From Natrialba aegyptia DSM 13077 (GTDB lineage Archaea; Halobacteriota; Halobacteria; Halobacteriales; Natrialbaceae): 64,000 nucleotides of DNA. The DNA is taken from assembly GCF_000337535.1 (NCBI RefSeq), contig NZ_AOIP01000012.1, forward strand, positions 1-64,000, read 5' to 3'. Shown here piece after piece: positions 28,200 to 55,194 of the stretch. The translations under genes were made by a program, and so were the position numbers. The stretch's first letter is position 1. Every line of letters starts with the position of its first letter. The notes beneath the pieces were generated by a model. It did not search any database, had not been told where the DNA came from, and saw only the letters and a list, made by a program, of their open reading frames with translations.

Positions 28200-29069
28200 T
28201 CAGGTGTGATCCGAACTCGAATCCATCTCGCGATCGTCGTCCGCGTCCCGACCCCGAATCGAGGCGATCCAGGCGGAGACGGACCAGCGGTCGACGAGTA
28301 CGCGGGCGAGACTGACGCTGATGTAGGCGAGTCCGAGGCCCGCGAGCACGTCGATCGCCCAGTGGATGCCCAGATACATCGTCGAGAGCGCTATCGAGGT
28401 TCCCAATCCGAGAGTGACGTAAAACCACGTCGGATACTGGTCTCGAGTTCGGTAGGCGAGGAGCGTGACGGTCGTCGCGAGGGAGGCGTGCAACGAGGGG
28501 AAGACGTTCGTGTTTCGGTTGACCTGTCGCGTGAGGTGTTGGTACTGCGGATACGTATCGTACAGCAGCGCCTCGACGAGTTCAGGCATCATGTTCCGCG
28601 GTCCGAAGGCGATGACGAAGACGTAGAGGACGAGTCCGAGGGTGTAGTTGAGCGTGTAGGCGGCCAACAGTTCGCGAAGCGGGCGCGTATCAGCGAGGGC
28701 GAAGTAGGCGACGACCGGAAAGGTGAGCGCGAAGACGTAGCCGTAGATGTAGATAAAGGAGAAGTAGGCCGTCACGGCCGGCGTCTCGAAGGACTGTAGC
28801 CAGAGGATGAACTGGCCCTCGATGTCGTAGATGGCCCAGGTGAGGTTCCAGCCGATCATCCACGAGAGGTCGGGAACGAGCTGTCTGGCGATACTGTTGA
28901 ACAGCAAGGCGACGGTGAGGACGGCCAGCGCGGGTGCCGTAGCGCGAAGCCGGGTGCGCCACTCCGTGCGCGTCACTTGCAGTCGGCGGCGGCCGACGAA
29001 GAGTGCCACGGAGACGGCGATCATGAGCGTGACGACGACGACCAACTGGACGAGAACCTGCGTGAGCAT
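28200..29069 (-). CDS. PAP2-superfamily membrane phosphatase, copy 1
   Basis: A 289-aa membrane protein with about six helices. The PAP2 motifs are partly kept: AFGPRN (C1-like), PSLHASLATT (C2, catalytic His) and YLGIHWAIDVLAG (C3 His-Asp). Such proteins dephosphorylate isoprenoid or phospholipid phosphates, or transfer head groups like inositol phosphorylceramide synthase. Its ATG overlaps the stop of the upstream solute-binding protein gene by one base (TGATG). The same two-gene arrangement recurs at 31206-33912. Confidence 0.88.
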   Translation of the reverse strand: MLTQVLVQLVVVVTLMIAVSVALFVGRRRLQVTRTEWRTRLRATAPALAVLTVALLFNSIARQLVPDLSWMIGWNLTWAIYDIEGQFILWLQSFETPAVTAYFSFIYIYGYVFALTFPVVAYFALADTRPLRELLAAYTLNYTLGLVLYVFVIAFGPRNMMPELVEALLYDTYPQYQHLTRQVNRNTNVFPSLHASLATTVTLLAYRTRDQYPTWFYVTLGLGTSIALSTMYLGIHWAIDVLAGLGLAYISVSLARVLVDRWSVSAWIASIRGRDADDDREMDSSSDHT

Positions 29070-31084
29070 CAGTATCTCACCCGAAGCCGCCCCTCGTCGT
29101 CGTATCGAAAGCCCGCCTCCTCGAACGCCGCTCGTGCCGCCTCGACATCGAGTTCACCGTCAGTCCCGAGGAACGGCGTCTCGGGATCGGTTCCCGTCCA
29201 CGCCAACGAGTCGGGTGTCCACTCTCGGGTGACGGGTGCCGCGATCGGCCGTGCGTGACCGTAGAAGACGTCCGAGACTAACTGTTCTTTGTCGATCAAC
29301 CGGGCGATCACCCGTCTGAACCGCGGATTGGAAAACGGCGCGGTCCGCGCGTTGAAACCGAGGTGGTAGAACGATCCCGTGGACGACTCGATCACTTCGA
29401 TCGGATCCGAGTCGCTGGTTTGCTCGCGTTCGCTTTCGGCTGCGAGCACGTCGTCGACGACGTAGGATTCGAGGGCGAGACTCGTCACGTCCGCCTCGTC
29501 GCTCTCGACGAGTTCGATCGCGGACGTACTCCGCGGATCGATCCGTATTCGGAGCGTCTCGGCGCTGGGCTCGGGGAGCGCGACGGACTCGCGTCGCGTA
29601 AAGTGCTCGTCGTAGCGCTCTAGTGTGACGAACTCGCGCTGGGTCCGGTTTTCGAACTGGAAGGGGCCGCTTCCGACCGGCGGCAGATTCTCGGTGATGA
29701 GAGCTTCCGTCGTTCCGTCTGCGACGGTGATCGCAGGGATACTCGCCGTCTCGGTCCGCTCGGTCCAGATGTGCGCGGGCAAGATCGGAATCTCGAGGAC
29801 GCGTTTGGCGACCGGTTCGCTCGCCGTACAGGTGAACTCGAGTTCGTATTCGCCCTGCTTGGTTACGTCCGCGATCGGATCGACGTGACCGCGGTAGCGT
29901 GGCGACGGCGCGGGGAACTCGCTGTCGTCCCGTGTCGTATCGGACAGAAAGTCGATAGTAAAGGCGACATCGTCGGCGGTGAGTTCGTGGCCGTCGTGGA
30001 ACTGGCAGTCCTCTCGGAGCGTGACGGTCAGCGTGCCAGTGGGCTCGAGTTGGGTATCGGGATTGAGTTCGATATCAGTATCAGTATCAGTATCGGTATC
30101 GATGCCACTACCGTTTCCGGTACGTTCGTCCCCTTCTTCGTTCTCGGCCTCGGTCTCGTTCTCGTTCTCGTTCCACGTCCAATCGGTCCCGAGCCACGGA
30201 GAATATGTCCGATCGCCGTCTTCCTCGACACCGTCCGTTTCCTCGTCGCCCCCTCCAGCATCCGTCCCATCCCCACTCCATCTCGGTACCGCAAGCGAAT
30301 CGTACAGCAATCCCGTGACCAGCCCACGATTTCGAAACTCCACTGCGAGCGGGTTGAGATTCTGCGACGGCCGAGAATCCGTATGGGCCGCTCGAAGCAC
30401 GGCCTCCTCCGTCGTCGGCGGATCGAGTCCGAGATACCCCATACGGGTTGCGAGATGGCCTTGCTTCCAGCCGTCGAACCGATCGGTTCGAACGAGTCTG
30501 AACTCGTGTGGAACGCAAATGGGGACGAACGGTTGTTCGAGCGCGAGTGCTTCGAGGGTCCGGCTGACGGCCTGTTCGCGCTCCTCGCCGCCGGCGCGCT
30601 GCTGGCGATCGAGGTACGTATCGAACGTGAGATTCGTAAAGCCGAACGGATTCTGCCAGCCCGATTCGTCGGCGAATTTCGAGTGGAGGGTTTCGTAGAG
30701 AAAGTCCGGGCGGATATCGCCGGGGTGGCGACCGACGTAGATATCGAAGTCGTGGTTAATCAGGACCGTGCGGCGAAACGCCTCCCGTGACTGCATATCG
30801 ATCTCGATGTCGATTCCGGCAGTTTCCAGCGTCGCGCCGATATCCTGTGCGAGCTGGATACTCTCTCTGTCCCCGTCGGCGGAAAGCGTCGTGATCGTCA
30901 GCGAGAGCTGTTCGACCTCGTTTCGATTGACGATACTGCGGACATGTTGGAGACAGCCACTGGTCGATGCGGAAAGGCCGACCGACGCGGCGAGCATTGC
31001 TCGACGGCTGAGACCGGCGCTATCACGACCTGCGGACGGGGTACGACGGCGGTCCGGACTGGAGGACGGTGGGGGATCACTCAT
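29069..31084 (-). CDS. Peptide/nickel-type solute-binding lipoprotein (SBP_bac_5), copy 1
   Basis: A 671-aa extracellular binding protein. The Tat lipoprotein signal SRRAMLAASVGLSASTSGC ends in the lipidated Cys. SBP_bac_5 features are DFDIYVGRHPGDIRPDFLYETLHSKFADESGWQNPFG, the DGHELTADDVAFTIDFL block, and the C-terminal RFRRVIARLIDKEQLVSDVFYGHARP. A low-complexity insert (NENENETEAENEE and DTDTDTDTD) is absent from copy 2. ATG 31084 is chosen because a TATA box (31113-31120) lies 29-36 bp upstream. No permease or ATPase genes are adjacent; the downstream partner is a PAP2 phosphatase. Confidence 0.88.
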   Translation of the reverse strand: MSDPPPSSSPDRRRTPSAGRDSAGLSRRAMLAASVGLSASTSGCLQHVRSIVNRNEVEQLSLTITTLSADGDRESIQLAQDIGATLETAGIDIEIDMQSREAFRRTVLINHDFDIYVGRHPGDIRPDFLYETLHSKFADESGWQNPFGFTNLTFDTYLDRQQRAGGEEREQAVSRTLEALALEQPFVPICVPHEFRLVRTDRFDGWKQGHLATRMGYLGLDPPTTEEAVLRAAHTDSRPSQNLNPLAVEFRNRGLVTGLLYDSLAVPRWSGDGTDAGGGDEETDGVEEDGDRTYSPWLGTDWTWNENENETEAENEEGDERTGNGSGIDTDTDTDTDIELNPDTQLEPTGTLTVTLREDCQFHDGHELTADDVAFTIDFLSDTTRDDSEFPAPSPRYRGHVDPIADVTKQGEYELEFTCTASEPVAKRVLEIPILPAHIWTERTETASIPAITVADGTTEALITENLPPVGSGPFQFENRTQREFVTLERYDEHFTRRESVALPEPSAETLRIRIDPRSTSAIELVESDEADVTSLALESYVVDDVLAAESEREQTSDSDPIEVIESSTGSFYHLGFNARTAPFSNPRFRRVIARLIDKEQLVSDVFYGHARPIAAPVTREWTPDSLAWTGTDPETPFLGTDGELDVEAARAAFEEAGFRYDDEGRLRVRY

Positions 31085-31111
31085 ATCGTCCGTTGCCACA
31101 GTTCGCCGGGG

Positions 31112-31121
31112 ACGATATAAC
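31112..31121 (-). promoter_or_regulatory. TATA box of SBP copy 1
   Basis: Minus-strand gttatatcgt lies ~28-37 bp before ATG 31084. It places the transcript start just before that codon and excludes the upstream GTG at 31099. Confidence 0.5.
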
Positions 31122-31205
31122 AGTATTGCGCTGTCCCCTGTTCCACTGTCGGAATCCGTGGCGGTTCAGAACGGCCGACGGACGAAACGGTATCCGATCG
31201 CTGTC

Positions 31206-32081
31206 TCACGAGTTCTCCTGCGATGGCGTCGTCACGGTATCACGGTACTCGTGAACTCGCTCGCGGACCTGTTCGAAGATCGCTGTGAGCGACCACCGAT
31301 CGACGAGGTAGGTCGAGAGGGAAACACAGAAGCCGGCGAGTGCGAGTCCGGCGAGCACGTCGATGCCCCAGTGAATGCCCAGATACATCGTCGAGATCAT
31401 GATGCTGATACTGAGACAGACAGCGATGGGGAACCATCGAGGATACGTCGAGCGGGTTTGGTAGGCGAACGTGGCGACGGTTGCTGAGAGGGAGGTGTGA
31501 AGCGAGGGAAAGACGTTCGTGTTCCGGTTGACCTCGGTGGTGAGATACTGTACTTGCGGATTGTTGTCGTACAGCATTGTTTGAGTGAGCTCTTCGACAA
31601 ACACGTTTCGCGGGCCATAGGCGATAAACAGAATGTAGAAGACGAGGCCGATCGCATAGTTGAGCGAGTAGGCTATCAGGAGCCGCCGAAAGTCGATCGT
31701 CTTCGACCGTGCCGCGTACGCAATGACTGGAAAGATGAGCAAAAAGACGTAGCCGTAGACGTAGCTCATCGAGAAGTACGCGTTTGCTTCGGGCGAGGCG
31801 ATCTTCTGAAAGTGTAAGACGAACTCGCCCTCGATGGTGTAAAACACCTCGGTCATGTGGACGCCGTATTCCTGAGAGAGACTGCGTCCCTGCTGTCGCA
31901 TGATTCGATTGAGCAACAAGATTGCAAGGAGCAAGGCGATTGCAGGGGCGCTGGTACGAAGGCGAGACTTCCACTCCTCGCGGAGCAGTGAGAGGCGGTC
32001 CCGACCAACGACGCCCGCGAGTCCGACCGAAAGGAGGATCGAAACAGCGACGACGACCTGCAACAGAAGCTGCGTGAGCAT
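31206..32081 (-). CDS. PAP2-superfamily membrane phosphatase, copy 2
   Basis: A 291-aa paralogue of the protein at 28200-29069. It shares the MLTQLLLQVVV N-terminus, FNSI/LNRI-type helix 2, YGPRN, PSLHTSLSATV and YLGIHWGIDVLAGL motifs. The PAP2 catalytic His residues are retained. It starts 4 nt after the stop of SBP copy 2, so the order SBP then PAP2 is conserved. The likely substrate is a lipid or isoprenoid phosphate at the outer membrane face; how this couples to a binding protein is unknown. Confidence 0.88.
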   Translation of the reverse strand: MLTQLLLQVVVAVSILLSVGLAGVVGRDRLSLLREEWKSRLRTSAPAIALLLAILLLNRIMRQQGRSLSQEYGVHMTEVFYTIEGEFVLHFQKIASPEANAYFSMSYVYGYVFLLIFPVIAYAARSKTIDFRRLLIAYSLNYAIGLVFYILFIAYGPRNVFVEELTQTMLYDNNPQVQYLTTEVNRNTNVFPSLHTSLSATVATFAYQTRSTYPRWFPIAVCLSISIMISTMYLGIHWGIDVLAGLALAGFCVSLSTYLVDRWSLTAIFEQVRERVHEYRDTVTTPSQENS

Positions 32082-32085
32082 TGTG

Positions 32086-33912
32086 TTACCTCAGCAGGTT
32101 TCCGTCGTTGTCGTACTCGTAATCTTCGGCAAACAGTGACCTGGCGGCCTCGACATCAAGTTCGCCGTCGGTTCCGAGGAACGGGGTGACGGGGTCTTTG
32201 TCCTCCCAGACGAGCGAGTCGACCTCGGAGTCACTGTCGGGAGTCCATTTCTCGGCGACGGGCGCGGCGACAGGTCGTGCGTGGCCATTGAAGACCGTTT
32301 CGGTGATCCAACCCTTGTCGACCAGTCGGGCGACGGCACGGCGAAAGCGGGGGTTGCTAAACGGCTCTTTGAGGGTGTTAAACCCGATATGGTAGAACGT
32401 CCAAGACGTATCCTCGACCCGCTCGACTGGATCGTCATCCGAGATTCCACCGAGAGCGTACGTCTCGAGGCGGGCCGTCGTCATGTCCGCCCCGCCGCTT
32501 GTGATCCGGTCGATGGAGGAGGCCGTCCCCGGGTCGACTTCGAGACGAAGTTCGGGGACAGTCGGTTCCGGAACGTCGTCTGTACCCACGGAAAAGTGGT
32601 CCTCAAAGCGTTCGAGGAGTAAGAACTCTCCCTTACTCCGGTCGGCGAACTGGAAGGGGCCGCTTCCGACCGGCGGAATATTGTTGGCCGTGACGAGCGA
32701 CCAGGTCCCCTGCGGCGGTGAGAACTCGTCGGCGCCGGTCACACGTGTATCGACGCGTTCCGTCCAGATGCGCCGTGGCAGAATCGGTACCGTAAACGCA
32801 CGCTCGGCAACTTCGGGACTGGTCGAGGACGAAATCGTCAGGTGGTAGTTGTCCTCGGCGGTGATCGAGTCTACCGCAGCGACCTGGCCGCGATAGCGCG
32901 GTGCCGGCGAGGCCTCCGGCGCGCGACCGAGCGTCGTGTCCGCGAGGAACCGATAGGTGAACTCGACGTCCTGAGCCGTCAGCGGATCGCCGTTGTGGAA
33001 CGTACAATCCTTGCGCAATTCGATCGTCGCGGTCGAGCCGTTCCACTCCCAGTCGGCTGCGAGCCACGGTCTCAGGTTGCTCTCGCTGTCGTCGTCCGTC
33101 TCTTCGTAGGTCGCAAGCGAGTCGTACAGCAAGTCGGTAACGGTCCCTCGCTCGCGGGCCGTCGCCGAGAGCGGATTGAGGTTTCGCGTCGGTCGAGCGT
33201 CGGTGATCAGCGCGTGTAGCTGCTCGACATCCGCCGCCGGTTCGAGTCCGAGATAACCAAGTCGGGTTGCGAGATGTCCATCTTCCCATCCGCTAAAGCG
33301 ATCCGTTTGGACGAGCCGATACTCGTTCGGGATACAGACCGGAATGAACGGTTGTTCGAGGGCGAACCGCCAGAGGAGTTCGGCGATAGCTTCCTCGCGC
33401 TCGGCTCCCTCGACGGTGCGTTGTCGCTCGAGGGCACCATCGAAGGAGGGGTCCGTAAATCGAACCTCGCTATCGAAGGAGGGGTCCATAAACTTAAACG
33501 GATTCTGCCAGCCGCTTTCGTACGCGTACGTCGAGTGTAACGCCTCGTAAAGAAAGTCGGGATTGAAGTCGGCCGGGTGACGCCCGACGTAGATATCGAA
33601 ATCCTGCTCGAGCAGGACCGTCTCGAGGAGTTCAGATCGCGATCGCGTGTTGATCGTTGCGTTGACGCCGACGGAGCGAAGATTCTCCTCGAGATGGCGT
33701 GCGATCTGGGCTCCTTCTCTGTCCCCATCCGCACCGGGCAGTGTGAGAATGGAGACGGACATCCCAGTGGAACTGTTCGGGTCGACGACGCTCTGGACGC
33801 GGTTGATACAGCCGCTTGCTCCGATCGCGAGGCCAGTTGCGCCGGCAGCCAGCATCGCCCGCCGACTAATCCCGTCGGTGGACTCGTCGGACTCGTCTGG
33901 TGGTGAGTTCAT
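32086..33912 (-). CDS. Peptide-type solute-binding lipoprotein (SBP_bac_5), copy 2
   Basis: A 608-aa paralogue of copy 1 with Tat lipobox SRRAMLAAGATGLAIGASGC. Matching blocks include DFDIYVGRHPADFNPDFLYEALHSTYAYESGWQNPF, YRLVQTDRFSGWEDGHLATRLGYLGLEP, GDPLTAQDVEFTYRFLADTT and RFRRAVARLVDKGWITETVFNGHARP. It lacks the asparagine/aspartate repeat insert of copy 1. ATG 33912 is preferred to a GTG five codons upstream. No ABC permease or ATPase genes are nearby. Confidence 0.88.
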   Translation of the reverse strand: MNSPPDESDESTDGISRRAMLAAGATGLAIGASGCINRVQSVVDPNSSTGMSVSILTLPGADGDREGAQIARHLEENLRSVGVNATINTRSRSELLETVLLEQDFDIYVGRHPADFNPDFLYEALHSTYAYESGWQNPFKFMDPSFDSEVRFTDPSFDGALERQRTVEGAEREEAIAELLWRFALEQPFIPVCIPNEYRLVQTDRFSGWEDGHLATRLGYLGLEPAADVEQLHALITDARPTRNLNPLSATARERGTVTDLLYDSLATYEETDDDSESNLRPWLAADWEWNGSTATIELRKDCTFHNGDPLTAQDVEFTYRFLADTTLGRAPEASPAPRYRGQVAAVDSITAEDNYHLTISSSTSPEVAERAFTVPILPRRIWTERVDTRVTGADEFSPPQGTWSLVTANNIPPVGSGPFQFADRSKGEFLLLERFEDHFSVGTDDVPEPTVPELRLEVDPGTASSIDRITSGGADMTTARLETYALGGISDDDPVERVEDTSWTFYHIGFNTLKEPFSNPRFRRAVARLVDKGWITETVFNGHARPVAAPVAEKWTPDSDSEVDSLVWEDKDPVTPFLGTDGELDVEAARSLFAEDYEYDNDGNLLR

Positions 33913-34355
33913 ATCGATTCGGTGCACCTCGGTCGGGTATCGGCTAACAGTCGGTTGGACATCGGTTTCGAGTGTAAAGAATCTGTGGACACTGTGCGCG
34001 CTCGCACGTCACGTCTCATCGAGCGACCGGACCCAGCAAGTCGGACCGGTGAGTCGAGTGCGGGAGAGCCAATCGTCGAACGTGCAGGGAGGGATTGGGA
34101 AACGATCACGGTTCATCTCGTTAAACTGTGGGGGACCTTCGTGCCACGAGTTCGGTTCCGTAGTAGGACGGTTCGATCAGTCGTACACTTCAAAGGGTCA
34201 ACACCCCCAGTATAAAACGCTTCGAAACCATGTTCTCTTGAACGTTGGTTGAAACTAGACGTGTGTGACCGCGCTGTTCCCAGGGATCAGCATCGGTACA
34301 GCCCGGATTAGTGGCGGAACACAACACCAATAGGTTGTGGCGTCCAACCAGCAGT
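33913..34355. other. Long intergenic region with no supported gene
   Basis: The stretch separates divergent genes. It holds the promoter of SBP copy 2 and a TATA-like agtataaaacgc at 34208-34219 on the plus strand. No reading frame with coding character or recognisable RNA was found. Confidence 0.4.
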
Positions 34356-48468: not shown

Positions 48469-48774
48469 ATGGGGCTGCGTGACGACAATGAGTCGGATAC
48501 CGAACCGAACGAAAACGACGACGCGCACAAGAATCCGGGCGAGACGCACGAACACCCCGGTGACGCACACGAAAATCCCGATCGCGAGACCGACCACGAG
48601 TTCAGAACGTGCCCGCGGTGCGGGGAGCCGATCACCCGAACGACGGTGATCGGGCCGACGGACGCGGTTGCGGGGCCGTGTGGCTGTCGCGTTGCGCCGC
48701 CGGTTCCCGACGACGTAGCGCAGGGGGATCGGGCTGATTGTCCCGAGCGTCCTGAGCGACCCGACGAGTCCTAA
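48469..48774 (+). CDS. Acidic zinc-ribbon-like protein
   Basis: A 101-aa protein starting MGLRDDNESDTEPNENDD. An acidic His-rich N-terminus (residues 1-45) precedes a compact CPRCGEPITRTTVIGPTDAV and AGPCGCRV segment, a C-x2-C...C-x-C zinc site, and a Pro/Asp-rich tail. Small CPxCG-type zinc proteins are numerous in haloarchaea. An ATG six bases upstream is also possible. Function is unknown. Confidence 0.6.
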   Translation: MGLRDDNESDTEPNENDDAHKNPGETHEHPGDAHENPDRETDHEFRTCPRCGEPITRTTVIGPTDAVAGPCGCRVAPPVPDDVAQGDRADCPERPERPDES

Positions 48775-49116
48775 CAGCCGCGGACAGACCCATCCAACGG
48801 GTCTGCCGAACGGAGCGGGTCGCGGCGGGACATCGGATTCCACGCAGCGTGTGATGGGTAGCTGTCCACAGCCATCACAACCACCGCACCACCACCATTC
48901 GAAACCGCAGCGCGGAATCCGAACCGAACTCGCGGCTCGACGCTGTTGTAACGCGAGGCGGTGCTCTCGAACGCCTCGCGAACCTCGACCGTTGCACTGA
49001 ACTCCGTAGATCGAGTTCAGTGCACGGCGGTAAGGAGCAAACGAAACAGGGAGCGTTCGGACGACACACTGGCTCGAACGCACTGTCGTCCCGGCGCTAC
49101 AACGGGGAGCGGTCGC
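48775..49116. other. Intergenic region with two hairpins
   Basis: No gene is seen. A 7-bp hairpin (cagaccc/gggtctg, 48785-48805) lies 10 bp after the zinc-ribbon gene and could end its transcript. An 11-bp perfect hairpin (gcactgaactc/gagttcagtgc, 48994-49023, loop of 8 nt) lies about 95-125 nt past the signal peptidase stop on the minus strand and could terminate or stabilise the surface-protein operon mRNA. Confidence 0.5.
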
Positions 49117-49563
49117 CTACCGCCAGTACGTGCCCGTGATCCACTGCGGCTCGACCGGGCGCGAGAGGCCGGTTTCTTGGTCGTACGACGGGTTGGAATC
49201 TCCTTTCGTGATGTAGCCCTCGTTCGGCGCGGGGCAGTGAACCGCCTCGGCACAGGTGAGCGAGTCGGTCGTGTTCCCCTCGAGCGCAGCGACCCAATCG
49301 TCTCCTTCCGAAACGTACGTCACGGCCCGATGCACCACGAGTCGGTTCGATTCGTTGCCGTCCGCGTGAAAGACGATTATCTCGCCGCTCTCGAGGTCCT
49401 CGTGCGATCCCCACTCGGAGACCACGATCCGGGAATCCCGCTCGATCGTCGGCTCCATGCTGCCCGTCGGGACGTGGTGAATCGCAACGACCAGCGAGAG
49501 CCCGTACAGCAGTCCGCAGATGAGCACGAATCCGCCGCCGGCGATGAGTAGTTCGCGTTTCAT
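49117..49563 (-). CDS. Signal peptidase I, archaeal/SipW type
   Basis: A 148-aa membrane protease with one N-terminal TM helix (LLIAGGGFVLICGLLYGLSLVVA). The catalytic Ser35 is in HHVPTGSMEPTI. Box D has His78 (NRLVVHRAVTYV) in place of the bacterial Lys, and box E is YITKGDSNPSYD (Asp122/Asp128). Ser/His chemistry defines the ER/archaeal/SipW branch. It is the last gene of a four-gene operon, 7 nt after the GLUG protein, and is the likely processing enzyme of the three exported proteins encoded upstream (inference). The usual C-terminal TM helix is absent. Confidence 0.92.
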   Translation of the reverse strand: MKRELLIAGGGFVLICGLLYGLSLVVAIHHVPTGSMEPTIERDSRIVVSEWGSHEDLESGEIIVFHADGNESNRLVVHRAVTYVSEGDDWVAALEGNTTDSLTCAEAVHCPAPNEGYITKGDSNPSYDQETGLSRPVEPQWITGTYWR

Positions 49564-49570
49564 TGGTCTG

Positions 49571-51370
49571 TTAGTCGACGTCGACGGTGAGCGTGGCCGT
49601 CGCCGGTCCCGCGGTCGCCGTCGCTATCGTCTCGGTCGCAGTGCCGAGTTCGACGGTGAGTGTGAACTCGATCGTGGTGTCGATCCGTGCGGCGTCGGCG
49701 GTGGGTTCGAGGTGGGTGAAATCAGAGTCGATAGCTGAGTGAGAGGACAGCGAAACGGTGTCGATGTTCAGGTCGGTGAACGACGGCGTGAGCGTCCCGT
49801 GTGGGAGGTCGGCGGGGTCCAGGAGGTCGGTCGCGGGAACGGTGTGGGCGTCGACAAGCGGTTCGAACGTCGTGCTCCCGCCGGAGGGGGTGGTTCCGCG
49901 GTCGTGGGGGATGGGGGTATCGAGAAGGTGCGGGTAGTCGTCGGGGTCCGTGACGGTCGTCCAGGTGTCCGTGAAGTCGAGGGCCGTATTTGCGCTCGCC
50001 GCAGCGCCTTGCAGTTCGCCCGTCGACAGTCCATCGAGGTCCTCGTCGCCGTCCGCTTCGATGAGACCGACGGCCGTTCCGGAGGCATCTGTGTCCCAGT
50101 AAGTGCGTTCGAGATCGCCGGGATCACCGCCGATGCACAGAAACAGGAGACACGTCCGGTCGGTCTCGTTGACGGCGACGAAGCCGGCTGCGTTGTCGTG
50201 GTCCGGGACGGCGACGGTGGCGTAGGCATCGCTGATGACCCCGGTTTCCTCGATGTCGTCTCCGCCGAGGCCGACGAGCGACAATAATCCGTCGAGGACG
50301 CCGATAACGAGTTCGAGCAGCGAGCCGATCAGCCCCGCGTCTTCGCCTTCGCCGAGTGCGTTCGCTCCCGCGAACCCGCCGACGACGGCGTCGCCGTCGA
50401 TGGTGCCCCGTGCGTAGGCGTCGCGGGTATCGGCGACGTTCAGGCCGACGAACCCGCCGGTGAATCGGTCGCCGGTGACGGAACATTCCGCGTACGAGCG
50501 ATCGATGTGGCCCTGTTCGGTTTCGCCTTCTTCCCGCACGTTCGCCCCGACGAGTCCGCCGACGAGTTCGGTGCCCTGGACGGCACAATCGAGCGCGTAC
50601 GAGCGGTCGATCGTCCCGATGTTTAGCCCGGCGATGGTGCCGACGGCGTTGGGACCCTGAACGTCGCCGTGTATGAGGCCGACGTGGTCGACGGTACCCG
50701 CGTTGACGCCGATCAAGCCGACGCCGTCGTCGTCCCCGTCGATCGTGAGCCCGCAGATTCGGTGGCCGTTGCCCGTAAGCGTCCCCTCGAACGCCTCGTC
50801 CGCGTCGGTATCGGTGAGCGGATCGAATCCGCTTCCATCGTTCCAGGCTCCCGTCTGCGTCGCATTGATGTTATTGCCGAGTTCGTAATGCGCATCGAGG
50901 GCTGCAGCGATCGCCTGGAGTTCGTGATCGGTCGTGATGACGTACGGATCGCTCGCGGACCCGTCTCCGTCCATTCCGTCGAGGACGGCACCGAGATCGG
51001 CCGGCGCGTGGTCGTTTGGCTCGCTCCAGCCGGCGAACGCGCGATCGGCCCGGCCATCGACGTGTGGATTGGCCTCGAGCGTGAACTGGAACTGGTACCC
51101 GTCGGTGAGGACGCTATCGGGAACGTTGGCGTAGTCGACGGTGATCGTCGATTCCTCGGCGACGACGGCCTCGGTGACGATGCCGCAGTTCGTCTCGATC
51201 GTCACGTCCGCAGCGTCGAACTCGATCGAAGCGGCGAACGCTGGTTCCTCGATGCGGAGAAACTGATCGTATCCGAACGCGGACCCGAGGGCCGTCCCAA
51301 GGAGTCCGGCCATCGCCGTTCGGCGCGAGAGCGGTTCGGTCACGGTCGGTTGTCGGTCGGTCGAGTTCAT
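49571..51370 (-). CDS. Exported GLUG-repeat protein of the signal-peptidase operon
   Basis: A 599-aa secreted protein. The signal has twin Arg (SRRTAMAGLLGTALGSAFGY) and ends IEEPAFA|ASIEF near residue 46. Residues ~47-125 begin a beta domain (TVDYANVPDSVLTDGYQFQFTLEANPHVDG). Residues ~135-470 are GLUG-type repeats (FEGTLTGNGHRICGLTIDG, GLIGVNAGTVDHVGLIHGDV, VGGLVGANVREEGETEQGHI), found in adhesins and proteases. The C-terminal ~100 residues resume the beta domain (SSHSAIDSDFTHLEPTADAA then TTIEFTLTVELGTA), matching the two upstream proteins. The GLUG block thus looks inserted into the shared domain. Confidence 0.85.
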   Translation of the reverse strand: MNSTDRQPTVTEPLSRRTAMAGLLGTALGSAFGYDQFLRIEEPAFAASIEFDAADVTIETNCGIVTEAVVAEESTITVDYANVPDSVLTDGYQFQFTLEANPHVDGRADRAFAGWSEPNDHAPADLGAVLDGMDGDGSASDPYVITTDHELQAIAAALDAHYELGNNINATQTGAWNDGSGFDPLTDTDADEAFEGTLTGNGHRICGLTIDGDDDGVGLIGVNAGTVDHVGLIHGDVQGPNAVGTIAGLNIGTIDRSYALDCAVQGTELVGGLVGANVREEGETEQGHIDRSYAECSVTGDRFTGGFVGLNVADTRDAYARGTIDGDAVVGGFAGANALGEGEDAGLIGSLLELVIGVLDGLLSLVGLGGDDIEETGVISDAYATVAVPDHDNAAGFVAVNETDRTCLLFLCIGGDPGDLERTYWDTDASGTAVGLIEADGDEDLDGLSTGELQGAAASANTALDFTDTWTTVTDPDDYPHLLDTPIPHDRGTTPSGGSTTFEPLVDAHTVPATDLLDPADLPHGTLTPSFTDLNIDTVSLSSHSAIDSDFTHLEPTADAARIDTTIEFTLTVELGTATETIATATAGPATATLTVDVD

Positions 51371-51376
51371 GTCGCG

Positions 51377-52552
51377 TTACTCCGGTTCGGTCGTTGCTGC
51401 CCCGTCGAGTGCGATCGTTCCACCGGCGGACACGCCACGGGTGGCGGGCGGCTTTGACGGGGAGTCCGGGTCTGACGGGTCTGACGGAGCCGACGGCTTG
51501 TCGGGTGTTTGCACGATCTTTCGCGTCGGCGTCACAACGACGACGAAGTGCTGTGTCGTCTCGGCTCGCCGGTCGTCGAGTTCAGCGCGAACGATCACGT
51601 CGAGGGCGGTGACCGCCTGGGCGTTCCCGGTCGGTTCAAACGCCGCATACGACGACGAGATCGCAGTGTGTTCAGCGAGTGCCATCGGTCCGTCGTGAAT
51701 GTGTCCCGTCGCGGATCTGGACGGCGTCGGTTCGATGGCGATCGTTCCCGCGGCGATCGGTTCGAAGTCGGAAGCGAACTCGGGTCGGACGAGGAGCGAG
51801 ACGGAGATTTCCGTGCCGGTCTCGATGTCAGCACCGTCGTCGTACGTGATCGTGATCGGCAACTCGCCGCCCGCGAAGTACATCGCGTCGATCCCGCCGG
51901 CGTCACCGTCGACGACGAACTGCTCGGAAAGCGTCTCGGCGGCGACGGTAAAGCCGGCGTCCCGCGAGACGATCACGGTGATCGTGTCGGTCGCCGTGGC
52001 AACCGTTCCGTACGTCTGTGATTCGACCGTCACCGCGATCTCGACGGTCGTTTCTGCTCGCTCGTACCGCTCGGTCGGCGCGAACTCCGCGTAGTCCGCG
52101 GAAACCGCTGAATGGTCGGCGAGATCGATCCCGCTCCGGTCGAACCCGTCCGAACGAAGGGTTCGGGAGATGACGCCGCTGGGCGTCGCGCCGACGTTGA
52201 TCGTGCCCGAGGCCAGCGGCTCGCTCTCGTCGGCGAACGTCGGTCTCACGCCGATCGTAACGTCGAACTCGCTTTCGTTTCGTGCGACGCGATTGAACCG
52301 CTCGTAGGCGATCCGCAGCTCGATCGTCTCACCGGGAATGCGTATCGGCTCGCTGTCGCCTCCGTGCGTGGTGGCGACGACGTCGGCAGGAGAGACGGTC
52401 GCGTCGACGGTAACGGCAGGGTCGTCCTCGCTCCCGCGGCTGTGCAGCACGTACCCGAGTCCAACGCTCCCGGTCGCGCCGATCCCGAGCAGCCCGAGAA
52501 GCGCCGCTCGGCGAGAGATGTCGTACTCCGTCGGCGGCGTGTTGTCGGTCAT
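51377..52552 (-). CDS. Exported protein with two tandem copies of the shared beta domain
   Basis: A 391-aa secreted protein. The signal region SRRAALLGLLGIGATGSVGLGY is followed by SEDDPAVT, echoing the (D/E)(D/E)PAFA motif of its neighbours. The mature part has two related ~150-residue units. Unit 1 contains PLASGTINVGATPSG, DLADHSAVSADYAEFAPTER and TTVEIAVTVESQTYGTVATA. Unit 2 contains PIAAGTIAIEPTPSR, ALAEHTAISSSYAAFEPTGN and ALDVIVRAELDDRRAET. It ends 6 nt before the GLUG-protein gene. Unknown function, probably a structural surface or fibre protein. Confidence 0.82.
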   Translation of the reverse strand: MTDNTPPTEYDISRRAALLGLLGIGATGSVGLGYVLHSRGSEDDPAVTVDATVSPADVVATTHGGDSEPIRIPGETIELRIAYERFNRVARNESEFDVTIGVRPTFADESEPLASGTINVGATPSGVISRTLRSDGFDRSGIDLADHSAVSADYAEFAPTERYERAETTVEIAVTVESQTYGTVATATDTITVIVSRDAGFTVAAETLSEQFVVDGDAGGIDAMYFAGGELPITITYDDGADIETGTEISVSLLVRPEFASDFEPIAAGTIAIEPTPSRSATGHIHDGPMALAEHTAISSSYAAFEPTGNAQAVTALDVIVRAELDDRRAETTQHFVVVVTPTRKIVQTPDKPSAPSDPSDPDSPSKPPATRGVSAGGTIALDGAATTEPE

Positions 52553-52591
52553 TCTATTTCGAACGCTGGTTCGCTATCCTGTGATGGCGGC

Positions 52592-53290
52592 TCAGTCGGT
52601 CGTCTGCGGGGCGTTCTCGGCTTCACCGCCGAGGACGATGTGCCCCCCAACCGCGATTTCGATGTCGTCCTCGTCGATGGTCGTCACCGTGACATCGAGT
52701 TGCACGGTGGCCTCGCTGGAAACGGTGTCATAGCTGGTCGCGGCGACCGCTAACGTGAACTCCAACGTCGTCGTCGCCGACTCGCCGACGCCGTCGGCGG
52801 GCTCGAAGTCCCCGAGTTCGATCTGGCTGTGGTCGTCGATCAGGATGCTGGAGACGCCCAAATCGCCGTCTAACGAGGAGACGATCTCGTCGCTCGGGAG
52901 GGCACCAGCATCGATCGTGGTTTCGAAAATCGTCTCTTCGCTCGCGCCGAGGTCTGCGGAGGCGAGCCCGAGGGTAACGTCGAACTCGTCGACGCCGTCC
53001 CCGACCTGGCTCTCCTGGAAATTGATGTATTCGAACGCGATTTCGGTCTGGCTGCCGTCGATAGCCACGGACGCAACGTTGCCGTCGACGGTGGCAATCG
53101 TGATTCCCTCACCGGTGAGTTGCAGGTCACTGAACGCGAACGCTGGCTCGTCCGTGGCAAAGAACGTTCGGTAGCCGAACAACCCGCCGCTTGCGATCCC
53201 CGCAGCACCGAGTACGGCCGTCCGTCGATTCAAGAGCGCGATACCACGGTCACGATTATCCTCATCCGCCCCAAATATGTCATCTGTCAT
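52592..53290 (-). CDS. Exported single-domain protein, first gene of the signal-peptidase operon
   Basis: A 232-aa secreted protein. The signal (residues 21-52) is NRRTAVLGAAGIASGGLFGY followed by TDEPAFA|FSD, a cleavage context like SipW-dependent TasA/CalY proteins, whose mature chains begin near F-S-D. The mature domain has IAFEYINFQESQVGDGVDEFDVTLG, TTIDAGALPSDEIVSSL, DDHSQIELGDFEPADGVGES and TTLEFTLAVAATSYDTV. ATG 53290 is chosen because a TATA box (53312-53321) lies 22-31 bp upstream; an upstream in-frame ATG would precede the transcript start. Confidence 0.83.
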   Translation of the reverse strand: MTDDIFGADEDNRDRGIALLNRRTAVLGAAGIASGGLFGYRTFFATDEPAFAFSDLQLTGEGITIATVDGNVASVAIDGSQTEIAFEYINFQESQVGDGVDEFDVTLGLASADLGASEETIFETTIDAGALPSDEIVSSLDGDLGVSSILIDDHSQIELGDFEPADGVGESATTTLEFTLAVAATSYDTVSSEATVQLDVTVTTIDEDDIEIAVGGHIVLGGEAENAPQTTD

Positions 53291-53311
53291 GATACTACCG
53301 ACTACGACACA

Positions 53312-53321
53312 GTATATATGG
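53312..53321 (-). promoter_or_regulatory. TATA box of the surface-protein/signal-peptidase operon
   Basis: Minus-strand ccatatatac lies 22-31 bp before ATG 53290. This predicts a leaderless operon mRNA covering 53290 to 49117. Confidence 0.65.
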
Positions 53322-53607
53322 ATTAGAAGTTGTCTCACGAATCGAGAACATGTAGAATCGTTACTACCATGTGGTGATCACTGCACAGCACTCGGCGCGA
53401 GCCGAGTCCGTGCCGAGAGACGGTCTCCGCCCGGACGGCGATGATCACGACCGGCCGTGGTATCCGTACCAATACCGGCCTCGTCAATACCAGTCTCGCC
53501 GCCACCACCACCATCATTTCCCGCCCGTCGAAACGACGGGACGGGACCGGGTCGAACGCACAGGTCGACACGGAGACGAGCAGAAGCCGCGACACGCGAG
53601 AACAGCG
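53322..53607. other. Intergenic region with a GNRA hairpin, no supported gene
   Basis: A perfect 7-bp hairpin with a GCGA loop (actcggc/gccgagt, 53390-53407) lies about 200 nt past the permease stop. Short open frames on both strands lack conserved or haloarchaeal composition. Confidence 0.4.
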
Positions 53608-55194
53608 TCAGCCTTCGGTCTGCGACTCAGTGCCGCCGATCCAGCGGTCCCAGAACGTGTTGAACTCGGTTTCGTCCTCGGTCAGCCGATCGAGTTCAGC
53701 GAGGCCGCGTTCGGTACGGGTTCCCGGAATCGTGTTGTCGAGGACGAGCGCGGCGAGGCCGCCGATGGCCATGCCGGTCGAGCCGATAATGTAGATCGTA
53801 TCGACGACGGCGATGGCCGCCCCCTCGATGACGGGGACGAGGACGGTGCCGGCGATGGCGTCAGCGCCGAGCAGCGGGTCGATCGCGCCGGCGAGGCCGA
53901 CGGCCTCGCGGAAGGCGAGCGTGCTCTCGAAGTTGCCCATGTACGACGGAATCGCGAGGCCGACGAAGAGGGCGAAGCCGACGATGAAGACGTTGCGCGA
54001 GGAGTCGAGGTCGACGTGTTTGAGGTTCCCGATGCCGACGGCGACGATCTGGGCGAACATGGCGATGAAGAGGCCGCCGATGATGGGGTCGGGAATGGTC
54101 GCGATGAGCTGGCCGAAGTAGCCGATAAAGCCGACGAGCAGCATGATAACCGCCCCGAACTGGACGACGTAGCGCGAGGCGACGCCGGTCAATCCGATCG
54201 CGCCGATGTTCTCGGAGTAAGAGGTCGAGCCGCCGGTGCCCATGATGCCCGAGAAGACGTTCATCAGACCTTCCATACCGATGCCGTGGTTGATTCGCTT
54301 TTCGCTGGGGGCGGCGGCACCGGTCAGGTTCGCGACGGCGTAGTAGTCGCCGATGCTTTCGACGATCGAAGCGAGCACGCCGGCGAACATGCCGACGACG
54401 AACGCGGTCGTGACCTCCGGGGAGCCCCACTGGAACGGCCGGATCGGCAGGATGAGCGACGTATTGGTAACATCGCCCAGCGGGACGAAGCCGGGGTGGC
54501 CGCTGCTGAGGACGCCTGTCGCCGACAGCACCGCGGCGACGATCCAGGAGATGCCGATTGCCAGGATGACCGGATACAGTCTGAACGCCCGGTGTTTGAG
54601 ATCGAGGTACTGCGAGAACAGCAGGATGAGTCCGAGCGTGAGCCCGAGGAGCCACCAACTCTGCTCCGGCGACGTGATCTGGTCGGCATCGAACAGCGCC
54701 AGCCCGATCAGGGCGATGGTGGGCGCGATGGCGACCGGCGAGAGGTACCGCTGGAGTTTCCCGACCAGGCCGAAGTACCCCATCGCGACCTGGACGACCG
54801 CGGCGAGGATGATCGCCCCCTGTAACTGCACCAGTGCGGCCTGCCAGTCCCCGCCCGCGCCGCCGGCGGTGACGACGCCGATAATGGCGAGCGCGGGTGC
54901 GAGCATCGAGAACGGCGCGCCCTGGACGATCGGGTACCGGTTGCCGAACGTCGTCTGGGCGAGCGTCGCGATTCCCGAGACGACGAAGAAGGTCCCGATG
55001 AACTGCGGCCACAGTGGATCCGGCATCCCCATTGCATCCGCCAGAAACAGCGGCACGGCGATGTTCGCGCCGACCATCGTCAGATAGTGCTGGACGCCGA
55101 GCACGGCCGACTCGCCGAACGGCGGCTGGTCGTCGATACCGTACTCGATGTCGTCCGCGCCCGCGTTCCCCCCTGCTGTGTCTTCCCCCGTCAT
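53608..55194 (-). CDS. NCS2-family nucleobase (uracil/xanthine) permease
   Basis: A 528-aa transporter with about 14 helices. NCS2 signatures are GVQHYLTMVGANIAVPLFLADAMG, IVQGAPFSMLAPALAII, YFGLVGKLQRYLSPVAIAPTIALIGLALFDAD, VESIGDYYAVANLTGAAAPSEKRINHGIGMEGLMNVFSGIMGTGGSTSYSENIGAIGLTGVASR and PDPIIGGLFIAMFAQIVAVG. It imports a purine or pyrimidine base with a cation. ATG 55194 is preferred over an upstream start because the extension lacks family similarity. It is monocistronic. Confidence 0.94.
   Translation of the reverse strand: MTGEDTAGGNAGADDIEYGIDDQPPFGESAVLGVQHYLTMVGANIAVPLFLADAMGMPDPLWPQFIGTFFVVSGIATLAQTTFGNRYPIVQGAPFSMLAPALAIIGVVTAGGAGGDWQAALVQLQGAIILAAVVQVAMGYFGLVGKLQRYLSPVAIAPTIALIGLALFDADQITSPEQSWWLLGLTLGLILLFSQYLDLKHRAFRLYPVILAIGISWIVAAVLSATGVLSSGHPGFVPLGDVTNTSLILPIRPFQWGSPEVTTAFVVGMFAGVLASIVESIGDYYAVANLTGAAAPSEKRINHGIGMEGLMNVFSGIMGTGGSTSYSENIGAIGLTGVASRYVVQFGAVIMLLVGFIGYFGQLIATIPDPIIGGLFIAMFAQIVAVGIGNLKHVDLDSSRNVFIVGFALFVGLAIPSYMGNFESTLAFREAVGLAGAIDPLLGADAIAGTVLVPVIEGAAIAVVDTIYIIGSTGMAIGGLAALVLDNTIPGTRTERGLAELDRLTEDETEFNTFWDRWIGGTESQTEG

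Follow-up and report, generated by a model that had tools for sequence, protein, structure and literature searches.

A conserved accessory operon of Natrialbaceae predicted to encode three exported beta-domain proteins and a Sec11-type signal peptidase

In Bacillus subtilis, TasA, TapA and the signal peptidase SipW are encoded in one operon (PMC9674648). The type I signal peptidases Sec11a and Sec11b of Haloferax volcanii are of the archaeal/eukaryotic type, and a 2015 review considered the cleavage of a Tat signal peptide by an archaeal Sec11-type enzyme as still to be shown (PMC4343526). We analysed 64,000 nucleotides of Natrialba aegyptia DSM 13077 (contig NZ_AOIP01000012.1, positions 1 to 64,000; hereafter, the window), which contain a four-gene cluster, P1-P2-P3-P4. 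Like the TapA-SipW-TasA operon of Bacillus (and SipW-TasA/CalY of B. cereus), this cluster combines predicted exported, beta-rich proteins with its own Ser/His signal peptidase. Unlike the Bacillus operon, its exported proteins have no sequence or profile relation to the Bacillus ones, their twin-Arg regions are without the SipW-cognate motif, the peptidase is of Sec11 ancestry, and the three paralogues differ in domain make-up, one of them carrying a GLUG-type insert. The haloarchaeal SipW-cognate clusters (TIGR04088/M73) are also comparable in outline, with several exported proteins, one S26 gene and an RR in the signal region, but they differ in the signal C-region, in an unrelated mature profile and in the S26 subtype.

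The four genes are all located on the minus strand and span 49117–53290 in the open reading frames of the window. P1 (52592..53290, 232 aa) is predicted to be exported by the Tat route and has a single family domain and, at its C-terminus, the tail VGGHIVLGG; P2 (51377..52552, 391 aa), also predicted to be Tat-exported, has two tandem family domains, a Pro-rich linker and a GG tail; and P3 (49571..51370, 599 aa), the third predicted Tat-exported protein, has a family domain split by a repeat insert and is without the GG tail. P4 (49117..49563, 148 aa) is a truncated Sec11-type signal peptidase I with one N-terminal hydrophobic segment. The intergenic gaps of P1/P2, P2/P3 and P3/P4 are exactly 39, 6 and 7 nt, so that the spacing given in a first-pass annotation of this DNA is borne out by the coordinates. 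The leaderless promoter proposed in the same annotation fits as well: a TATA-box-like catatata (53313..53320, minus strand), at −30 to −23 from the ATG start codon of P1, is preserved in all four operon loci, and its position is consistent with a leaderless start.

The cluster is a real, conserved, accessory export operon. The same four-gene order is found in Natrialba taiwanensis (G005), Natronolimnohabitans sp. A-GB9 (G050) and Natrinema limicola (G197), and the complete operon is thereby known from four species, belonging to three genera of Natrialbaceae, with protein identities of about 40%; few genomes carry it. Outside Natrialba, the operon proteins are 39–70% identical to the window copies, and the P2, P3 and P4 genes overlap or nearly overlap in the orthologous operons, some of the overlaps being 4 nt. 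The P1/P2-form exported domain is similarly patchy, being detected by profile search in 5 of 125 Natrialbaceae genomes and in 5 of the 392 Halobacteria genomes sampled; among these five, G049 has genes resembling P1, P2 and P3 but no P4. In a sister Natrialba genome (G002), both flanks align, and 575 bp (L175:9103-9676) stand opposite 4.9 kb in the window (48711-53619); in another (G001, L176), unrelated genes fill the operon site. The operon is thus an accessory module at a variable chromosomal locus. A creatininase-family gene (PF02633; 47089-47907) adjoins the operon, and its stretch is also unaligned to sister G002.

The three predicted exported proteins begin with twin-Arg segments (NRRTAVLG in P1, SRRAALLG in P2 and SRRTAMAG in P3), followed by a G-rich hydrophobic stretch and a cleavage context (TDEPAFA in P1, SEDDPAVT in P2 and IEEPAFA in P3), of which the P2 version (PAVT) is the weakest. 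The signal region of P1 comprises residues 1–52 (53135..53290, minus strand) and ends in DEPAFA, the putative cleavage site. The common twin-Arg core and acidic PAxA context to which the first reading had drawn attention are seen in all three proteins and recur in the orthologues. We searched for the motif [DE][DE][PSA][ATS][FVLM][ATS] after the twin-Arg segment, and found it in 11 of the 55 Tat-like N-termini compared (all 11 being operon proteins) and in none of the remaining 44, a count that is a background measure only because the three proteins of the window themselves served to define the motif; the independent evidence for the motif is its recurrence in orthologues. The AxA context immediately precedes the domain, whose first strand aligns with the point at which domain 2 begins inside P2. 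In the family members, the twin-Arg signal and AxA were judged by sequence pattern, from which Tat export of P1–P3 is predicted. We considered whether the signal region is related to SipW signals and rejected this: the hhalign alignment was confined to the RR and the hydrophobic part, and either set aligns about equally well to generic Tat signals.

Profile comparison resolves P2 into two copies of the P1 domain, domain 1 at 51965..52426 and domain 2 at 51524..51958, followed by a Pro/Ser-rich linker (51434..51523) and the C-terminal tail VSAGGTIALDGAATTEPE (51380..51433; all minus strand). Because the Pro-rich linker precedes the tail, the tail lies outside domain 2. The corresponding tail of P1 (IDEDDIEIAVGGHIVLGGEAENAPQTTD; 52595..52678, minus strand) carries a GG motif conserved in relatives. 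A strand-like GGxIxL tail closes both P1 and P2, and the GG motif is found in solitary and viral members of the family as well; P3 is without the GG tail in all orthologues. The family domain of P3 is split at profile position 82/83, with positions 3–82 at 51029-51265 and positions 83–153 at 49613-49825, and the insert (49835..51028, minus strand) comprises approximately 400 residues and contains GLUG-type repeats with four VGGxxGxN motifs. In the window P3 the GLUG repeats are degenerate (E 0.28, four motifs), and in the P3 orthologue of N. limicola the match reaches 7.5e-31 over seven stretches. The insert is similar to modules with which haloarchaeal surface proteins adhere, and regions with comparable repeats occur commonly in long reading frames of haloarchaea. 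The AlphaFold2 (AF2) model of P1 has a confident beta-rich core (pLDDT 80–89), and in this monomer the tail strand sits in its own sheet, which counts against the assembly reading preferred below. The AF2 model of P3, built from an alignment of four rows, had a mean pLDDT of 35 and was discarded as unreliable. The best PDB fold matches of the P1 model are Asf1-type sandwiches (E about 1e-3, TM 0.3–0.5), which we took as generic Ig-like sandwich similarity, setting aside kinship to Asf1.

No model in Pfam, NCBIfam or PHROGs covers P1–P3. Against a viral fold library, the P1 model matches five small proteins (best E 1e-7), one of which is from HSTV-1 and was assigned to gp30 by its length. In the tailed archaeal viruses HSTV-1 and HRTV-28, gp30 (L122:20719-21288) and gp42 (L123:5839-6411) are, by translation, single-domain proteins that carry a twin-Arg signal and, at the C-terminus, the tail VGGSGTI; their genes adjoin tail-region genes and have no annotated function. 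A search profile joining the P1 domain and the viral proteins recovered full-length solitary relatives (below 1e-10) in about 50 of the 392 genomes of Halobacteria, and one genus of another family accounts for many of these; the tally of 245 of 392 genomes is inflated by short twin-Arg signal matches. The solitary members matched no Pfam or NCBIfam domain model beyond generic Tat-signal models. In signal-free hhalign comparisons, the operon and solitary families align with a probability of 98.5 (E 3.7e-15, 155 columns; reversed control 0.2), an E-value that is optimistic because the profile that recruited the solitary set included P1; the colinear full-length match and the clean reversed control support homology. 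The viral pair aligns with the solitary family at a probability of 96.6 (E 4.8e-10; reversed control 0.2). The direct match of mature P1/P2 to the viral profile is weak (probability 2.3, E 0.02), and the kinship between operon and virus therefore runs via the solitary family and the fold match. The sequence profile of P1/P2 against HSTV-1 gp30 alone was rejected, the match being confined to the signal region; tblastn of P1 in phages gave chance matches only, and in IMG/VR neither P1 nor P2 retrieved a relative, the scan with HSTV-1 gp30 returning HSTV-1 itself and nothing else.

These comparisons place P1–P3 in an unnamed haloarchaeal family of beta-domain proteins with predicted Tat export, most members of which are encoded by solitary genes. 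The solitary members (for example, L156, L161 and L164) and the two viral proteins share with the operon the same mature domain, with a twin-Arg segment and AxA before it, and share with P1 and P2 a G-rich C-terminal tail. Unlike the operon, they are encoded by one gene or a tandem pair without a neighbouring peptidase, and those examined have neither the GLUG insert of P3 nor the double domain of P2. What is new here is an exported haloarchaeal family with viral members, common to archaeal tailed viruses and outside every Pfam, NCBIfam and PHROGs model, together with a Sec11-type peptidase that has been co-opted and tied to substrates of the twin-Arg type. At L158:6011-8114 and L166:6014-8176, two family genes stand in tandem with no S26 gene close by, and the second gene of the former and the first gene of the latter have an extra C-terminal region with no Pfam match. 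At L164:4346-6662, in a relative from another family, a solitary gene of the protein family lies beside rtcB-like and archease-like genes, identified by eye only.

The fourth gene had been read as a small Ser/His signal peptidase I, and this assignment stands. P4 scores 28.3 bits against Peptidase_S26 (Pfam PF10502; cut-off 22.9) and 47.8 against TIGR02228, just below the cut-off of 51.85, and its Ser35, His78, Asp122 and Asp128 are invariant in the four orthologues. By profile and catalytic residues, P4 is a Sec11-type signal peptidase I, and its cleavage activity is predicted. In the S26 tree, the P4 clade is fully supported, long-branched and nested by fully supported branches among housekeeping Sec11-type enzymes; the three SipW-cluster S26 enzymes form a separate, fully supported group. 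This placement makes P4 a truncated, diverged Sec11 offshoot rather than a SipW-type peptidase, and its score against the SipW model NF046067 is 39.5 bits for a cut-off of 190. P4 and Sec11a/Sec11b of H. volcanii are alike in being Ser/His/Asp type I signal peptidases, whereas P4 stops just past the catalytic region and is tied to one operon: in the samples searched, P4 orthologues were found only there. The genome holds two other S26 peptidases, both with a C-terminal extension that P4 is without. The linkage seen here, of a signal peptidase gene with twin-Arg-type substrates, is rare.

The reading we prefer, which we regard as evenly poised between right and wrong, is that of an accessory Natrialbaceae surface-protein operon, and a surface structure is a reasonable idea for its product. 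The precursors of P1–P3 would leave the cell via the twin-Arg route. P4, a shortened duplicate of a housekeeping Sec11-type peptidase, would probably cut off the signal regions at AxA, leaving a mature chain that is proposed to start at the domain's first strand. The GG tail, be it that of P1 or of P2, may then dock into an adjacent subunit and so build up an assembly on the cell surface; being placed on a Pro-rich linker, the P2 tail would be able to reach another molecule. P3, since it is without the GG tail, would act as tail acceptor only and as the terminal subunit, and with its GLUG-type repeat module it may be the adhesive end of the assembly.

Alternatively, P1–P3 may be secreted or surface paralogues that do not assemble, with P4 as a redundant, travelling general peptidase and the housekeeping Sec11 enzymes processing the same proteins, an explanation that we consider unlikely but of real weight. 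Solitary relatives share the EPAxA context without an adjoining peptidase (for example, ATEPAFAL in L156, with 12 kb around the gene read), and the same context without a nearby S26 gene is found among 13 family loci (L155-L167) and L084; the motif is therefore not private to P4. Together with G049, which keeps the P1-, P2- and P3-like genes, these relatives indicate that the family in itself does not require P4, and the two other S26 peptidases of the genome could do the processing. Against redundancy, each of the four operons has kept P4 beside its three partner genes, in some cases with the 4-nt overlaps noted above; its clade is distinct and long-branched, not that of an enzyme recently copied from a housekeeping one; and a linker-borne tail such as that of P2 has no obvious role in a lone secreted protein. 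The earlier description of an operon with its own peptidase is thus upheld as regards the retention of P4 but not as regards a private pairing of motif and peptidase.

A stronger form of the surface-assembly reading, which we judge improbable, would have P4 dedicated to Tat precursors, with its cut and the GG tail driving a donor-strand-like fibre of TasA-independent origin, built from a family shared with tailed archaeal viruses. The viral relatives also allow a distinctly improbable explanation, in which the operon is a virus-related surface coat, a module traded between halovirus and host that masks or occupies a receptor (superinfection exclusion or anti-adsorption). It would account for the single-domain, Tat-type gp30 and gp42 beside tail-region genes, for the fold and profile matches linking P1, the viral proteins and the solitary family, and for the variable chromosomal site of the operon. 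However, no integrase, tRNA gene or viral gene is seen beside the operon in the open reading frames of the window, and sets of two or three architectures are not known from a virus here.

Kinship to TasA, implied by the earlier likening of the locus to SipW-TasA, is not supported by the profile, sequence and fold searches. In P1–P3, the Peptidase_M73 profile has no match at E<=1, and the SipW-signal and CalY models have none. In the whole genome, neither PF12389 (M73) nor TIGR04088 (SipW signal) finds anything at E<=0.1, and they are above cut-off in 9 and 18 of 61 relatives, respectively. The profile check of the exported domain against TasA/CalY that the first-pass annotation had suggested was run here and gave no match: a TasA-type chain is absent from the PDB profile-search matches, and TasA is absent among the 50 best PDB fold matches of the P1 model. 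For AbpA, checked at the sequence level, profile A9 finds no pilus chain among PDB sequences. The mature profile of the operon compared with true haloarchaeal SipW/M73 proteins gives an hhalign probability of 0.1 (E 0.59; reversed control 0.2), and the canonical haloarchaeal SipW-cognate clusters (L119, L120 and L121) each have their own S26 gene of a different subtype. That P1–P3 are TasA/CalY family members making matrix fibres with a SipW-type peptidase, for which the shared outline of a signal peptidase and beta-rich exported substrates in one operon would speak, is barely credible in the face of these profile, fold and tree results, and we consider the homology largely refuted. What holds of the proposed mirroring is the outline; by sequence, the likeness to bacterial TasA-SipW seems to be one of layout only, which suggests convergent evolution of an operon pairing a peptidase with structural proteins. 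Elsewhere in the window, at 28200-33927, the list of open reading frames contains two adjoining paralogous pairs, each of a twin-Arg/lipobox solute-binding-like protein and a membrane protein of approximately 290 aa.
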